From: Microbacteriaceae bacterium PS02068
GTDB taxonomy: Bacteria > Actinomycetota > Actinomycetes > Actinomycetales > Microbacteriaceae
Reading direction: 5' to 3'
Length of the DNA: 64,000 nt
NCBI GenBank assembly: GCA_029959325.1
Contig: JASCPF010000005.1
Location: 1-64,000 of the forward strand
Positions 2,710-33,111 of the stretch are shown here, in pieces; position 1 is the stretch's first letter, and every line of letters begins with the position of its first letter. A model generated the notes under the pieces. The model had not been told where the DNA came from, did not search any database, and saw only the letters and a program-made list of their open reading frames with translations. Made by a program: the position numbers and the translations under genes.

Positions 2710-3144
2710 GTGAGCGATACCCCCGAGCACGTCGAACCCGGCACCACCGGCTCGATCCGTGTGTCGGCTGCAGTGATCATGGATGCCCCGGATGGCGTGG
2801 AGCGCCTGCTGCTCGTACGCAAGGCCGGCACGACGGCGCTCATGCAGCCAGGCGGCAAGCCCGAGGCGGGCGAGACCGCGGCACAGACGCTCGTGCGCGA
2901 GCTGGCCGAAGAGGTGGGGCTTCGCGTGAGCGTCGACGATCTCGAGCCGCTCGGCGAGTTCACGGCGCACGCCGCCAACGAGCCCGGGTTCCTCGTGATC
3001 GCCGACGTGTTCCGCGTCGACATCGGCGACCAGACCCCCGTGCCCGACGCCGAAATCGCCGAGCTGCGCTGGGTCACGCGCGCCGAGGCATCCACTCTCG
3101 AAGTCGCTCCGCTGGCCGCGCAGTATTTCCTGCCTGCCGACTGA
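2710..3144 (+). CDS. Nudix hydrolase
   Basis: A 144-aa Nudix protein with a canonical box at residues 49-71: G-x5-E-x7-R-E-L-x-E-E-V-G-L, with the RELAEEVG core binding the catalytic Mg2+. Nudix enzymes cleave nucleoside diphosphates linked to another moiety; the substrate cannot be told. The start is GTG 2710, preceded by TAGCGT and exactly 6 nt, a leaderless arrangement. It lies 28 bp after the exporter gene and is convergent with the DUF1684 gene, 11 bp apart. Confidence 0.92.
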   Translation: MSDTPEHVEPGTTGSIRVSAAVIMDAPDGVERLLLVRKAGTTALMQPGGKPEAGETAAQTLVRELAEEVGLRVSVDDLEPLGEFTAHAANEPGFLVIADVFRVDIGDQTPVPDAEIAELRWVTRAEASTLEVAPLAAQYFLPAD

Positions 3145-3155
3145 CCGGGAGCGCC

Positions 3156-3800
3156 TCAGCCCTGGTAGTGCTCGCCGACCGGAACCTCCGCGGCGAGCAC
3201 GTTGCCGGGCGGGGCGAGCGGGCACGCCCAGGCCGGGTCGTACGCGCACGACGGGTTGTACGCGAAGTTGAGGTCGATCGTGAGTGCGCCGGCCGCAGCG
3301 TCGCCGCCGAGATCGGCGCCCTTGATCGTGTCGATCAGATAGCGGCCGCCGCCGTAGGTGCCGCCGGGGTGGCCGGCCAGCGCGTCGCGCACCGGCACGA
3401 ACAGGCCGCCGCCGTACGAGGCGAGGCGCCACACGTCGAGACTGCCGACCTCGGGGATCTCGACCCGGCCGATACGGTCGAACGGCACGGTGCCGTCGGT
3501 GCCGGTCGGCACCTCGAGCCGGTGCGGCGCTGCCGGCAGGATCGGCAGCTCGAACCGCCACCGCGGGTCGTACGGCGCGACCGGCAGTCCGGCGAAGCCC
3601 CCACGCGCTTCGGGCAGCAAGGGCGACGCGGGGTGGCTCGCCATCAGCTCGTCGCGTCCCCTGCGCCACAGCGCATGACCGTCCTCGGGTAACGCCGCGT
3701 CGCGCACCGCGTCGTAGAGCGCGAACACGCGGCGGCGCCAGTCGGCGGTCTCGAGCGCGGTGCGAGCGGCGCGGGCGTCGCTCGCGGGCGTGGCATCCAT
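3156..3800 (-). CDS. DUF1684 family protein
   Basis: A 214-aa DUF1684 protein. The family hallmark is visible near the C-terminus: NFAYNPSCAYDPAWACPLAP, a Cys/Tyr/Pro-rich segment shared by nearly all members, preceded by a GGTYGGGRYLID glycine-rich turn. No signal peptide, so it is cytosolic. Family function is not established. ATG 3800 is preceded by TACGCT and 6 nt, again leaderless. It is divergent from the SnoaL-like gene 50 bp away. Confidence 0.9.
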   Translation of the reverse strand: MDATPASDARAARTALETADWRRRVFALYDAVRDAALPEDGHALWRRGRDELMASHPASPLLPEARGGFAGLPVAPYDPRWRFELPILPAAPHRLEVPTGTDGTVPFDRIGRVEIPEVGSLDVWRLASYGGGLFVPVRDALAGHPGGTYGGGRYLIDTIKGADLGGDAAAGALTIDLNFAYNPSCAYDPAWACPLAPPGNVLAAEVPVGEHYQG

Positions 3801-3850
3801 TCCGCCAGCGTACGTCGGTCGCCGGTCGCGATCACCGGGAGAATGGGAGC

Positions 3851-4237
3851 GTGGAGCCCTGGGAGATGCACGAGTGGTTCGGCGACTACCTGGATGCCTG
3901 CAACCGCCACGACCTCGACGCGATCCGCGGGTTCCTCGCGCCGACCGTGCGCCGCGCGCACCTGCCCGGCGGGGCGGATGCCTGGATCGACGACCTCGGC
4001 GACCTGTTCCGGGCGTTCCCGGACTGGCGGTGGCGGCGCATCCAGCTCGTCGCCGAAGGCGACCGCATCGCCGCGCACCTGCGCGCCGGCGGAACCCAGG
4101 TCGGCGCATTCCGCGGGATCGCGGCCACGCGCCGGCACGTGAACGTGGCGGAGTTCGCGATCTATCGGCTCGCCGGCGGGCGGATCGTCGAGGCGACCGG
4201 CTCCGAACCGTTCGAGCTGCTCGACCAGTTGCGCTGA
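3851..4237 (+). CDS. SnoaL-like / ester cyclase family protein
   Basis: A 128-aa single-domain protein of the NTF2-like fold. The sequence shows the family pattern: N-terminal helix with NRHDLDAI, the FRAFPDWRWRR strand and a C-terminal hydrophobic strand FAIYRLAGGRIVEA. Members include polyketide cyclases and many small-molecule-binding proteins of unknown role, so the reaction is open. Start GTG 3851 has GAGAAT 6 nt upstream. It stands alone between convergent and divergent neighbours. Confidence 0.82.
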   Translation: MEPWEMHEWFGDYLDACNRHDLDAIRGFLAPTVRRAHLPGGADAWIDDLGDLFRAFPDWRWRRIQLVAEGDRIAAHLRAGGTQVGAFRGIAATRRHVNVAEFAIYRLAGGRIVEATGSEPFELLDQLR

Positions 4238-28513: not shown

Positions 28514-30160
28514 ATGAATGCCCAGCCCCACACCACCCCCGCACACTCCGATGACGCGTTCGACTTCGACTGGGCCATCGTCGGCTCTGGATTCGGCGGC
28601 AGCGTCGCCGCACTGCGGCTGTCCGAGAAGGGTTACCGCGTCGGAGTGATCGAGCGCGGTCGCAACTACGAGGACAGCGACCTGCCGTCGTCGACGAACG
28701 ACATCGAGAGCTTCGTCTGGGCGCCGGATCAGGGGCTCTACGGCATCCTGCGCGACGTCGCCTTCCGGCACGTCGAGACCGCCTCGCAGACCGGCGTGGG
28801 CGGCGGCAGCCTGATGTACGGCGGCGTGCTGTTCCGCGCGCAGGACGGCTTCTACGACGACCCGCAGTGGCCCCGCGCCGAGTCGTGGCAGCAGGCGCTC
28901 GAACCGCACTACGCCCAGGCCGAACACATGCTCGGCGTCCGCACCGCGCCATGGGACTCGGTGTCGATCCAGCTCACCAAGCGCATCGGCGAGCACTTCG
29001 GCGCCGAGTTCGGGCTCGCGCCGACCGGCGTGTTCTTCGGTGAGCCGGGCAAGACCGTCGACGACCCCTACTTCGGCGGCGAGGGCCCCGCCCGCACGGG
29101 CTGCACCCGATGCGGAGACTGCATGATCGGATGCCGCACGGGAGCGGCCAACCGACTGACGAAGAACTACCTGTGGTTCGCCCAGAAGCACGGCGCGCGG
29201 ATCATCGCGCAGCAGGAAGTCGTCGATATCGTGCCCCTGGGCGCGGCCGACGGTGCCGACGGGTATCGCCTCATCACCGAGCAGCGGCATGTCGACGGTT
29301 CGCGAGCACGCACGGAGTTCACCGCGCGGGGCGTCGTGTTCGCCGGGGGGACGATCGCAACCAACGAGCTGCTCGCCGACTGCAAGCACCGCGGGTCGCT
29401 GCCGCGCATCAGCGACCGTCTCGGTCAGCTGGTGCGCACGAACAGCGAGACCTTCCTCAGCGTGCAGTTCCCGACCGACATCGGCGCCTGGCAGGACGTG
29501 ACGGCGCCGAGCCGACTGCGCTTCGGCACGGACACTCAGGTCGAGCTGCTGACCGTCGGCAAGCACGCCGACGCGTGGGCGGGAAAGTTCACCGTGCTCA
29601 CCGGCAAGGGCAACGTCCTGGTACGTCGGATCAAGTGGCTGACGAACGTCATCCTCCACCCGGGGCGCTGGAAGGCGACCAAGCGGGCCGAGGGGTGGAG
29701 TGCGCGCTCACTCGCGATGCTCGTCATGCAGCCCCGCGACAACGCGGTGCGGCTGCGGGCGCAGAAGCGGGAGAGCGGCGACGGCTACGGCCTCGTCAGC
29801 GAGATCGACACGGAGCGCCCGGCGCCGACCTTCCTGAAGGTGGGTCACCAGGTGGCGAAGTGGCTCGCGGAAGAGACCGGAGGCGTCGCCGGAAGCACCT
29901 TCACCGAGGCGTTCCGCAACGCCCCGTGGACCGCCCACGTCGTCGGCGGTGCCGTCATGGGCTCCAGTGCGGGCGACGGCGTCATCGACAGCAGCCTGCG
30001 CGTGTTCGGCTACCAGAACATGCTCGTCTGCGATGCATCGGCGCTCCCCGCCAACCCCGGCGTGAACCCCGCGCTGACCATCACCGCGCTCGCAGAGTAC
30101 GGCATGCAGCACGTGCCCGCTCGGGCCGCGCAGGGCGTCGAGAAGGAGCTCGCCGCGTAG
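28514..30160 (+). CDS. GMC-family FAD-dependent oxidoreductase with Cys cluster
   Basis: 548 aa. FAD motif VGSGFGGSVAAL at about 23-34; C-terminal GMC motif with PANPGVNPALTITALAE. Of note C197-x2-C200-x2-C203-x3-C207 (CTRCGDCMIGC) resembles an iron-sulfur ligand set, a feature of the cholesterol-oxidase-like GMC branch. SD AGGAAGG precedes ATG 28514. Likely oxidises a secondary alcohol, perhaps sterol- or terpene-like; substrate inferred only from family. Follows the acyl-CoA synthetase. Confidence 0.9.
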   Translation: MNAQPHTTPAHSDDAFDFDWAIVGSGFGGSVAALRLSEKGYRVGVIERGRNYEDSDLPSSTNDIESFVWAPDQGLYGILRDVAFRHVETASQTGVGGGSLMYGGVLFRAQDGFYDDPQWPRAESWQQALEPHYAQAEHMLGVRTAPWDSVSIQLTKRIGEHFGAEFGLAPTGVFFGEPGKTVDDPYFGGEGPARTGCTRCGDCMIGCRTGAANRLTKNYLWFAQKHGARIIAQQEVVDIVPLGAADGADGYRLITEQRHVDGSRARTEFTARGVVFAGGTIATNELLADCKHRGSLPRISDRLGQLVRTNSETFLSVQFPTDIGAWQDVTAPSRLRFGTDTQVELLTVGKHADAWAGKFTVLTGKGNVLVRRIKWLTNVILHPGRWKATKRAEGWSARSLAMLVMQPRDNAVRLRAQKRESGDGYGLVSEIDTERPAPTFLKVGHQVAKWLAEETGGVAGSTFTEAFRNAPWTAHVVGGAVMGSSAGDGVIDSSLRVFGYQNMLVCDASALPANPGVNPALTITALAEYGMQHVPARAAQGVEKELAA

Positions 30161-30180: not shown

Positions 30181-30240
30181 CCGCAAATCTACGAGTCCCT
30201 AAGCGCAAAAGTACGAGTCGATCTCCGCAAAGCTACGAGT
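30181..30240. repeat. Three 16-bp direct repeats at an exact 22-bp period
   Basis: Units at 30181-30196 (CCGCAAATCTACGAGT), 30203-30218 (GCGCAAAAGTACGAGT) and 30225-30240 (CCGCAAAGCTACGAGT) share CGCAAA-N2-TACGAGT. The starts are 22 bp apart each time, about two helical turns, placing all units on the same DNA face. The array ends 18 bp before the GTG of the ATPase gene. Confidence 0.8.
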
Positions 30241-30258
30241 TCAAGATACTCTCATTGA

Positions 30259-31503
30259 GTGGAGAAGCTGATATCGCGACATTCGGTCGCGAACGCGACG
30301 GAGATGATGGGTGCTTTTCCGGCGCTCGTGATCCAGGGCGCGCGTCAAGTCGGCAAGAGCACATTCGCTGAGATGCTCGTCGCTGACAGGCAGGTACAGA
30401 TCGTCACGCTCGACGATCCGGGTGCCTTGAGCGCTGCGGTCGATGATCCGATCGCGTTCGTGGGTCGCGTTCCGCACGGCACACTTGTCATCGACGAACT
30501 TCAGCGCGCGCCGGGGCTGATTCTGCCGATCAAGGCATCCATCGACCGCGACCGACGTCCAGGTCGCTTTCTGCTGACGGGTTCGAGCGATCTGCTGAGG
30601 CTGGCTCGAACCCCCGACAGCCTCGCGGGGCGCGCAGTGACGGTCAACCTGCGAACCCTCAGTCAGGGCGAGATCCGAGGGCGGGACGACGACCTCATGG
30701 CGCGCCTCCGCAGGAACGCGGATGTGGCGGCGTTCTCCACGACGGCTACACGTGAGGAGTACGCGGCGATCATCGCCCGCGGGGGATATCCCGAAGTCCA
30801 GAGCCTGCCCTCGCGATTGCGATCCGTGTGGTTCGACGGATATGTGGACCGACTTCTCGAACGCGACGTTCGTGACATCGCTCCCCGCGTCGACCGTTCT
30901 CGAATCGAGCGCGTCCTGCGCCTCATCGCCTCAGGCCAATCCGGCGAGCTGGTGAAGGCGCGTATTGCTCGCGACGCCGATGTTCCCGAGACCTCTGTGA
31001 CGACGTACATCGACCTGCTCGAGACGATGTTCCTTGTCGGTCGGCTGAGGCACTGGTCGCGGAACCTCACCAGCCGCGAATCGGCGAAGCCGAAAGTCCA
31101 CGTGACCGACAGCGGCCTTGCCCTTCATCTCAGTCGGGTGAAGGAGGGCCAGCTCGTCCCGCTCGCCAATTCGCTTGTCGGTCCGGCGATGGAGGGGCTC
31201 GTTGTCACAGAGTTGCTCCGGCAACGCGGGTGGAGTGCGGAGGAGTTCGAACTGTTCCACTACCGCGATCGCGACGGCCTCGAGGTCGATGTCGTCGTCG
31301 AGTTCTTCGACGGCAGCGTCATCGGAATCGAGGTCAAGTCCGGCAGCACGCTGAAGAGCGAGCATTTCACCGGCCTCAAGCTGCTCCGCGAGAAGCTCGG
31401 CGATCAGTTTTTCGGTGGCTACGTGCTCAACACAAGCCAACACGGCACGTCGTTCGGCGACCGTCTATGGTCACTGCCCGTCTCGGCCCTCTGGGAACTC
31501 TGA
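30259..31503 (+). CDS. AAA ATPase with DUF4143 domain
   Basis: 414 aa. AAA_14 N-terminal domain with Walker A GARQVGKST (27-35) and Walker B LVIDELQRAP, then DUF4143. The C-terminal third has DGLEVDVVVE followed by IGIEVKSG, matching a PD-(D/E)xK nuclease core (D...ExK). These stand-alone ATPases are scattered and mobile in bacteria and their role is unsettled. GTG 30259 has no clear SD. Its codon bias looks slightly less GC-rich than the neighbours, and it interrupts a catabolic region, which suggests acquisition. A regular repeat array lies directly upstream. Confidence 0.9.
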   Translation: MEKLISRHSVANATEMMGAFPALVIQGARQVGKSTFAEMLVADRQVQIVTLDDPGALSAAVDDPIAFVGRVPHGTLVIDELQRAPGLILPIKASIDRDRRPGRFLLTGSSDLLRLARTPDSLAGRAVTVNLRTLSQGEIRGRDDDLMARLRRNADVAAFSTTATREEYAAIIARGGYPEVQSLPSRLRSVWFDGYVDRLLERDVRDIAPRVDRSRIERVLRLIASGQSGELVKARIARDADVPETSVTTYIDLLETMFLVGRLRHWSRNLTSRESAKPKVHVTDSGLALHLSRVKEGQLVPLANSLVGPAMEGLVVTELLRQRGWSAEEFELFHYRDRDGLEVDVVVEFFDGSVIGIEVKSGSTLKSEHFTGLKLLREKLGDQFFGGYVLNTSQHGTSFGDRLWSLPVSALWEL

Positions 31504-31515
31504 CCGAGCTCACCC

Positions 31516-33111
31516 TCACACGCGCACAGCGAGCGCGCGCAGGTCCTTCCGGAGGATCTTCCCCGCCGACGACTTCGGGATGGCGTCGATCATCTCGACC
31601 TGGCGCACCTTCTTGTACGGCGCCACGCGCTCGGCCACGAACGCGATGACCTCCTCCCCCGTGAGCTCGGCCCCCGGCTGCAGCACCACGAACGCCTTCG
31701 GCACCTCCTCGCCGTCGACATCGGCGACGCCGATCACGGCGGCATCGGCGATCGACGGATGCCCCAGCAGCACCGCCTCGAGTTCGGCCGGCGCCACCTG
31801 GTAGCCCTTGTACTTGATCAGCTCTTTCAGGCGGTCGACGATCGTGACGAAGCCCTCGGCGCTGATCGTCGCGACGTCACCCGTGCGCAGGAACCCATCG
31901 CCCGTCATCGACTCACGCGTGGCCTCGTCATTGCCCAGGTAGCCGACCATGATGTTCGGGCCGCTGCACTGCAGCTCACCCGCGGCACTGACGCCCTCCG
32001 CCGGAACGGGGATCTCCTCGCCGGTCTCGGGGTCGACCAGGCGGCACAACATGTTCGGCACCGTGACGCCCACCGAGCCGAGCGGGGTCTCCGGCTGGTT
32101 CAGGCGGTGCACCTGCGCGACCGGGCTCATCTCGCTCATCCCGTAGCCCTGCAGCACGCGGCATCCGAGCCGGGTGGCGACGGCGCTCGCGATCGCCGCG
32201 TCGAGGGGAGCGGCGCCCGACAGGATCGCGCGCACGCTCGAGAGGTCGAACTGATCGATCAGCGGGTGCTTCGCCAGCGCGAGCGCGATCGGCGGGGCGA
32301 TGAACAGGTATGTGCAGCGCTCGTCCTGCACGATGCGCAGGAACTCCTGCAGGTCGAAGCGCGGCATCGTCACGAGCGTCGCGCGGGCCCGCAGGGCGAG
32401 GTTCAGCAACACCGTGATCCCGTAGATGTGGAAGAACGGCAGCACCGCGAGGATCGAGTCGTCGGCATCCACTTCGATCATCGGCATGACCTGCGCGACG
32501 TTCGCCACCAGGTTGCGATGCGTGAGCATGACGCCCTTGGGCGAGGCCGTGGTGCCCGACGAGTACGGCAGGATCGCGAGGTGCGTGGCCGGGTCGAAGG
32601 TCACCTCGGGGGCGGTGAGCTCCGAGTCGATCAGGTCGGCGAACGACCGGTGCCCTGTTTCTTTTCCGATGCCATCGAGCACGATCACGGCGTCGTCTGT
32701 GAGACCCAGCCGGGTCGCGGCATCCAACGCCTGCGGCAGCAGCGGTGACACGGTGATCAGGCGCGTGGCGCGCGCGTTCGTGAGCTGCGAGGTGATGTCG
32801 GATGCCGTCGCCAGGGCGTTCACGGTGGTCACCGTGGCCCCCGCGCGCAGGATGCCGTGGAATGTGGCGACGAAGGCCGGCGAGTTGGGCGAGTGCAGCG
32901 CGACCACATCACCCACGCCGATGCCGTCGGCGGCGAGCGCGCCGGCGATCGCGTCGATCTGTGCGATCAGTTCACGGTAGGGCACCTGCGCACCCGTCGT
33001 GCCGTTCGTGATCGCGACGCGGTCGCGGTCGCTCTCGGTGAGCGAGCCGAACAGGAAGTCGTACACGCTGAGATCGGGGATCTCGACGTCGGGGTGGGGG
33101 CTTCGGAACAT
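31516..33111 (-). CDS. AMP-dependent ligase, 4-coumarate/long-chain acyl-CoA ligase type
   Basis: 531 aa ANL-superfamily ligase: P-loop YSSGTTASPKGVMLTH, A4/A5 motifs QGYGMSEMSP, GFLRTGDVA, hinge DRLKELIKYKG and catalytic Lys in KSSAGKILRKDL. The 4CL/long-chain type of motif spacing suggests an aromatic or medium-chain acid substrate. It is the first (5') gene before two co-directional genes? No: it lies downstream of the hydrolase/SDR pair on the same strand, 53 bp after the hydrolase stop, so may be the last gene of that operon. Confidence 0.9.
   Translation of the reverse strand: MFRSPHPDVEIPDLSVYDFLFGSLTESDRDRVAITNGTTGAQVPYRELIAQIDAIAGALAADGIGVGDVVALHSPNSPAFVATFHGILRAGATVTTVNALATASDITSQLTNARATRLITVSPLLPQALDAATRLGLTDDAVIVLDGIGKETGHRSFADLIDSELTAPEVTFDPATHLAILPYSSGTTASPKGVMLTHRNLVANVAQVMPMIEVDADDSILAVLPFFHIYGITVLLNLALRARATLVTMPRFDLQEFLRIVQDERCTYLFIAPPIALALAKHPLIDQFDLSSVRAILSGAAPLDAAIASAVATRLGCRVLQGYGMSEMSPVAQVHRLNQPETPLGSVGVTVPNMLCRLVDPETGEEIPVPAEGVSAAGELQCSGPNIMVGYLGNDEATRESMTGDGFLRTGDVATISAEGFVTIVDRLKELIKYKGYQVAPAELEAVLLGHPSIADAAVIGVADVDGEEVPKAFVVLQPGAELTGEEVIAFVAERVAPYKKVRQVEMIDAIPKSSAGKILRKDLRALAVRV

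Follow-up and report, generated by a model that had tools for sequence, protein, structure and literature searches.

A direct-repeat array in front of a DUF4143 gene

What does a short array of direct repeats do when it stands immediately in front of the gene for an ATPase of a candidate phage-defence family? The question is raised by a 64,000-nt stretch of DNA from Microbacteriaceae bacterium PS02068 (contig JASCPF010000005.1, positions 1–64,000; hereafter the window), in which a gene for a 414-aa AAA_14 and DUF4143 protein (30259–31503, + strand, GTG start; located by Pfam, PADLOC and the list of open reading frames, ORFs) is preceded by three copies of a 15-bp core. The answer we consider probable, drawn from sequence comparisons, is that the array is the cognate operator of this gene, and that the encoded protein binds the cores and controls, probably represses, its own promoter.

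The core pattern, CGCAAANNTACGAGT, is matched exactly three times in the window, at 30182–30196 (CGCAAATCTACGAGT), 30204–30218 (CGCAAAAGTACGAGT) and 30226–30240 (CGCAAAGCTACGAGT), all on the + strand and separated by two steps of 22 bp. The consensus of the array is CGCAAA-N2-TACGAGT, with starts at 30182, 30204 and 30226 and a period of 22. The GTG at 30259 stands 18 bp past the end of the third core, and the ORF opens exactly at this codon, with a TGA immediately 5' of it. When up to two mismatches to CGCAAANNTACGAGT are allowed, there are four matches in the window against 0.43 expected, a number reached in none of 100 shuffles. Across the whole 3,487,444-base genome there are no exact copies of the core besides the three of the array, and a single further site with one mismatch, the same number as is given by a reversed control pattern. 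The exact matches, shuffles and genome scan confirm the original prediction that a three-unit, 22-bp array ends 18 bp from the start codon. Its spacing had been described as exactly two helical turns, which is approximate: 22 bp make about 2.1 turns of B-DNA. In relatives the spacing is mostly 23 bp (183 of 227 spacings).

Arrays in front of related genes

Inspection by eye of the upstream regions of family relatives showed that most DUF4143 genes are preceded by a tandem array, the unit being a different one for each gene. To count such arrays, a detector was used that builds chains of 15-bp cores, with distances of 20–26 bp permitted, and a threshold score of 6, which is the 99% level from 315 windows inside the same genes. 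The relatives are a non-random sample, made up of the best matches per search and 60 listed places. Copies of the window locus (L002–L005 and L009), L014 (on the same contig as L036) and three loci of uncertain frame (L021, L029 and L032) were taken out beforehand, leaving 154 upstream regions. A usable frame was present in 147 of these, and 130 exceed 20% identity to the window protein; the remaining 24 of the 154 have no score-6 chain and were counted as misses.

Scores of at least 6 were found in 22/29 regions of the family set, 47/69 of the closer class set, 7/20 of the more distant class set, 2/30 of the phylum set (chosen by best Pfam score) and 0/6 plasmid loci, and in 78 of the 130 relatives over 20% identity. 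With the further requirement that all spacings be 22 or 23 bp, 71 of the 154 upstream regions qualify (family 22/29, class 41/69, distant class 7/20, phylum 1/30, plasmid 0/6), compared with none of 696 control ORFs, six of which reach score 6 with other spacings. The controls were open frames of at least 300 codons in 518 kb of DNA, made up of the window, three other stretches and twenty pieces of 20 kb from two DUF4143-bearing genomes. Chains above the 99% null level in the 154 regions contain 227 spacings, and 218 of these are 22- or 23-bp steps (23 bp, 183; 22 bp, 35; 24 bp, 5; other, 4).

The conserved trait is the architecture of the array and not the letters TACGAGT. As a family motif this sequence was rejected: the unit differs from gene to gene, and among 398 family genomes the present one alone has the two-unit pattern of this array. 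The expectation that TACGAGT arrays would lie upstream of other DUF4143 genes thus fails as worded, while the same geometry recurs with other units. The part of the proposed iteron-like arrangement for protein binding that stands is a direct-repeat array tied to a gene family (71/154 versus 0/696). Two observations had been named that would count against the proposal. Arrays before unrelated genes were absent from the 696 control ORFs, and homologues without arrays do occur in part, one clade being nearly array-less (the phylum set, 2/30 at threshold). In a FastTree phylogeny of the 130 proteins, arrays are present on both sides of the midpoint root, and their distribution requires 26 changes against a shuffled mean of 40.8.

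None of the six plasmid loci that were scored reaches 6; the rhizobial loci L201–L203 lie outside that set. Judged by eye, with no null for comparison, plasmid loci show clear arrays in Collinsella (L208, Actinomycetota), Bacteroides (L211) and Pseudohalocynthiibacter (L214), and weaker ones in Lentilactobacillus (L212), Novosphingobium (L204), Asticcacaulis (L217), Marinobacter (L205), Sulfitobacter (L207) and rhizobia. By the same inspection no array was seen in Runella (L209), Pseudosulfitobacter (L210) or Methanomethylovorans (L213; the sole archaeal locus inspected).

Repeat units are private to each gene

In the 77 detected arrays, 66 of which have 3–5 copies, core columns are 69–88% identical between copies and other columns 33–51%, a contrast that is inflated because the detector picked the core limits that maximise identity. 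The unit CGGCAGATCCACC has seven exact matches in its genome (G810), six of them in the array and the seventh in a long open frame, and the unit of L012 has six matches in genome G151, all six inside the array. In the three genomes checked, the unit is therefore confined, but for one place, to its own array. Same-genome paralogues are no more alike in their units than are other genes: the units of the 20 pairs of array genes that share a genome have an average similarity of 0.475, compared with 0.4745 for 2906 other pairs, and the units are therefore private to each gene. Such privacy fits a binder that is encoded in cis. Unit similarity climbs with protein identity (rho 0.37, reached in 0 of 2000 permutations), and among pairs under 45% protein identity the correlation is 0.20 (0 of 1000 permutations).

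Mapping the specificity to particular residues gave no decisive result: columns 243, 247, 249, 267, 269 and 274, which lie in the winged helix, are among the top ones, and so are 338, 120 and 30, which do not. A possible role of the arrays as viral decoys was considered, and two two-unit patterns, the only units tried, gave no match to viral contigs. A search of viral contigs for relatives of the window protein found none, and tblastn of a phage collection returned eight records at 24.5–30% identity.

Promoter context of the arrays

A TANNNT hexamer lies 3–10 nt 5' of the in-frame start and downstream of the array in 45 of the 77 array genes, against 11.6 expected from shuffling, and in 37 of these 45 it is placed 6 or 7 nt before the start. 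A hexamer shortly before the start codon is the layout of leaderless actinobacterial promoters. In the window, the candidate -10 hexamer is TACTCT (30247–30252, + strand), 6 nt 5' of the start codon, and the TANNNT excess in array genes suggests that it belongs to a leaderless promoter. The array together with TACTCT would place direct repeats at the promoter of the putatively regulated gene. The last core sits about where a -35 element would be, and no -35 signal was detected in 41 TANNNT array genes (1.93 matches, compared with 2.06 in shuffles).

Array-less genes differ in what precedes them. With a cut-off at the 95% level of 390 null windows, an inverted repeat within 120 bp of the start was found in 10/41 array-less genes, 1/78 array genes and 0/11 weak-array genes, although the number of independent cases is below ten because L050 and L051, and L043 and L045, are near-copies, and the repeats of L087 and L109 lie further upstream. 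Before plasmid genes, long inverted repeats are present in Azotobacter (L161, one of the ten, and L194) and Moraxella (L206). An inverted repeat before array-less DUF4143 genes is perhaps a second form of operator. Inverted repeats directly before array-less starts were noted in L067, L161, L194, L206, L050, L051 and L068.

The encoded protein

The window protein matches AAA_14 (E 1.2e-20) and DUF4143 (E 5.7e-38) in Pfam, and the PADLOC model PDC-S01 covers its residues 1–413 (E 1.3e-149), so that by profile match it is a member of the phage-defence candidate family PDC-S01. The same model is matched by 66/66 proteins of alignment A2, and weak matches to the CARF-PDDEXK and mad8 PADLOC models were seen in a few members of that alignment. 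The host genome has a single match to the window protein and a single DUF4143 match. PHROGs profiles gave no match to the protein up to E 0.1, and NCBIfam gave one (E 0.069), under its cut-off. A single-protein sequence search of PDB returned two matches, both to fatty acid synthase (E 0.91 and 0.94), and the best 60 of 97 matches (up to E 1) in a profile search of PDB were mostly P-loop stretches, with 2fna at E 0.093.

The AlphaFold2 model (predicted local distance difference test, pLDDT, 95.8; predicted template modelling score, pTM, 0.93) includes a winged helix. For residues 1–293 the best folds are those of archaeal STAND-type ATPases, PAB2304 (2qen; Z 16.1, 253 aligned, 4.6 Å) and SSO1545 (2fna; Z 14.1, 250 aligned, 4.4 Å); this part also aligns with CED-4 (Z 13.4) and NLR structures, and Foldseek further brings MalT, Apaf-1, Orc/Cdc6 and Avs4. 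The modelled protein has the STAND layout of SSO1545, CED-4 and Apaf-1, with helical and winged-helix domains behind a nucleoside triphosphatase. Its AAA+ ATPase part, placed by Pfam, alignment and the model, comprises approximately residues 1–139 (30259–30675, + strand), with a Walker A motif at G27...G32 K33 and a Walker B motif at D79 E80. The winged-helix part, delimited by AlphaFold2 secondary structure and the STAND alignment of residues 1–293, covers approximately residues 213–282 (30895–31104, + strand) and is the presumed reader of the core.

Residues 294–414 (31138–31500, + strand), modelled alone with a pLDDT of 93.4, resemble Can2 (Z 10.4, 120 aligned, 4.2 Å), McrC (Z 9.4), Cap4 (Z 6.9) and Shedu (Z 6.5), while Foldseek gave a best E value of only 1.0e-3 for this part. 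In the alignment of relatives E342 and D344 are invariant, and E358 and K360 are at least nearly so. The fold of the model and these acidic and lysine residues are those of a PD-(D/E)xK domain, and the C-terminal part is a predicted nuclease. The PD-(D/E)xK-like residues at the C-terminus reported in the original prediction are borne out by E342, D344, E358, K360 and the fold matches.

Proposed role of the array

We propose that the encoded protein, in which a STAND/Orc-like ATPase is joined to a winged helix and a PD-(D/E)xK domain, binds its own 15-bp cores. The proteins would probably sit side by side, facing one direction along the DNA, with the winged helix reading the core, and occupancy on the -35 side would lower transcription. 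Through such autorepression a defence nuclease that may be toxic could be kept at a low level until the need arises, or on entry to a new host. The most plausible binder is the product of the gene itself, and the modelled winged helix could bind DNA. Between the two directions of control we lean towards repression over activation, because the product looks like a nuclease.

The proposal is supported by the frequency of arrays before relatives (71/154) against 0/696 control ORFs, the predominance of 22- and 23-bp steps, the privacy and confinement of the units, the TANNNT hexamers, the better retention of cores than of spacers between orthologues at different rhizobial plasmid sites, the winged helix and STAND/Orc fold of the model, and the inverted repeats that array-less relatives more often have. 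Several points weigh against it. Because no -35 signal was found, activation is as compatible with the promoter layout as repression, and the winged helix of STAND proteins often acts as a switch and not as a DNA binder. One branch of the tree holds 27 rows, 24 of them without an array. The co-divergence of units and proteins (rho 0.37) shows co-inheritance only, not binding, and co-variation along the protein is nearly level, with partial correlations of 0.159 for residues 231–255, 0.157 for 1–25 and 0.156 for 321–345; the top window, 231–255, contains the second and third helices of the winged helix. The core–spacer contrast of the 77 arrays is inflated, as described above, and a second such contrast, which in itself favours the proposal, comes from one comparison, that of the rhizobial plasmid loci L201 and L202. 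Their four cores, spaced at 22 bp, are identical at 43/56 positions, the spacers at 12/24 and the DNA before the array at 9/19 (core against spacer, Fisher p 0.033). Between L201 and L203 the corresponding values are 43/56, 9/24 and 9/19.

Autoregulation has also to be set against other readings of the same repeats. In one of these, which we regard as unlikely, the array would be more than an operator and would take part in the defence itself: STAND-like ATPases would assemble head-to-tail on a private array, in the manner of DnaA or Orc proteins on origin boxes, and the state of the assembly would set the nuclease activity. The assembly might be docked, might be disturbed or lost during phage takeover, or might form on incoming DNA. 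Each locus would then have its own key (the array) and lock (the protein), and co-resident copies would be blind to each other. It is doubtful that another host regulator or a nucleoid protein binds the arrays and silences such genes. The arrays do lie at promoters, as sites of a separate regulator would, but the units differ by gene, even between same-genome paralogues, and in each of the three genomes checked the unit keeps to a single place; one common binder would require one shared site.

The remaining possibilities place the function of the array elsewhere than in control of the promoter. It is improbable that a mobile element which includes the gene uses the array as its target site or recognition end. 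The array accompanies the gene at several rhizobial plasmid locations and the distribution is patchy, but the array is one-sided, arrays keep a promoter-like distance from the start, and the junction is imprecise in the sole case inspected (a rhizobial one, in which about 0.2 kb of DUF5615 is missing), no systematic search for ends or mobility genes having been made. A repeated leader element acting in RNA would agree with a position directly 5' of the start codon, yet TANNNT, where present, follows the array or the greater part of it, and stands 6–7 nt from the start in 37/45 cases; the array would therefore not be transcribed from a TANNNT promoter, and we give this reading little credence. 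Less credible still is an iteron-like replication origin or partition site carried by the gene: 22-bp direct repeats beside a winged-helix ATPase gene resemble plasmid iterons, but most loci appear to be on chromosome-sized contigs or lack a replicon sign at the site, and no replication gene family is among the Pfam matches. Least credible of all is neutral tandem duplication or chance. Tandem repeats arise easily, and in some arrays, L012 and L027 among them, the spacers are also alike, as in young duplications, but 218 of 227 steps are 22 or 23 bp, none of the 696 controls has such an array, and cores hold while spacers diverge.

Relation to known systems

Plasmid iterons are direct repeats about two turns apart beside the gene of a winged-helix Rep binder capable of self-regulation, whereas the window gene lies on a chromosome-like contig of 100 kb among catabolic genes. 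DnaA binds repeated boxes at origins. A similar likeness is offered by Cdc6/Orc1, AAA+ proteins with a winged helix or helix-turn-helix on repeated DNA boxes, as described in the available part of PMC4599002. Unlike the boxes of Cdc6/Orc1 and DnaA, the sites here adjoin the start of the gene itself, and the loci do not suggest an origin function.

Autoregulatory operators are known from defence loci. RptR is encoded in a restriction-modification defence island and represses (PMC12255303, in part), and it shares with the proposed system operator repeats and a locus-encoded binder, the latter presumed in our case. It is a small dedicated repressor with 9-bp repeats that contain a 6-bp palindrome (same source), whereas here the presumed binder is an ATPase-nuclease, and the units are about 15 bp, non-palindromic by eye, 22–23 bp apart and gene-specific. 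A further parallel is IniR of mycobacteria, a promoter-binding protein whose ATPase domain resembles SSO1545; according to the available part of PMC5760070, it differs in having its own C-terminal DNA-binding domain, in activating another operon, iniBAC, and in that no nuclease domain is described there.

PDC-S01 is given as the fourth most common defence across all prokaryotes, with experimental validation pending for most PDCs (PMC12988326, in part). The window protein matches this model over residues 1–413, and the array is absent from the PDC-S01 descriptions in the available parts of PMC12988326 and PMC13356809. Nor are such arrays described in the parts of PMC12255303, PMC5760070, PMC8195603 and PMC4599002 that were available. 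A literature search by titles and starts of abstracts found no such array, within a scope that leaves out most subscription journals and bioRxiv preprints, so that unpublished status is unproven. The arrays before this gene and many of its relatives, each with a different unit, suggest a self-control device that has not been described, in a defence candidate that is among the commonest uncharacterised ones of bacteria. A gene-private cis element in a large part of the sampled family would provide a predicted binding site for each protein and a natural reporter, by which autorepression, insulation from paralogues or triggering of the locus by DNA could be probed. The arrays and their proteins would also form a large natural set of protein/DNA-site pairs for learning winged-helix specificity.

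Genomic location and distribution

The window gene is flanked by genes for a GMC-type oxidoreductase (28514–30160) and an AMP-forming ligase (31516–33111), both named by reading. DNA matching the end of the GMC gene is present in 134/295 genomes of the genus, nearly all of it short among the matches listed, and no clean empty site for the window locus was found in the genus genomes. In the one long match inspected (L195, genome G1204) the neighbours are reordered and the 18-kb stretch has no DUF4143 gene. The gene had been said to interrupt a catabolic region; it does stand between two catabolic-looking genes, but no clean empty site was found for it. The suggestion of a mobile system has indirect support from patchiness, with a DUF4143 match in 27/199 family genomes, and from the joint occurrence of array and gene at differing rhizobial plasmid sites; no mobility gene or precise ends were found, although no systematic search was made for them.

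In rhizobial conjugative plasmids, the relative lies between traH and DUF433 in L158 and L201, while three other plasmids inspected (L198–L200) have a DUF5615–DUF433 pair at this position. Compared with these three, the ATPase unit (L158:2860–4238; L201) occupies a place where about 0.2 kb of the region of the DUF5615 PIN-like gene is missing, and therefore no precise ends are seen. Relatives with 85% DNA identity are found at other plasmid sites in L202 and L203, and the blastn stretch in common with L158 runs over 2959–4214; it starts within the array and ends 44 bp beyond the stop codon. At about 2960–2990, L158 (Sinorhizobium) is without the last core and the usual start codon, and it may be a decaying copy.
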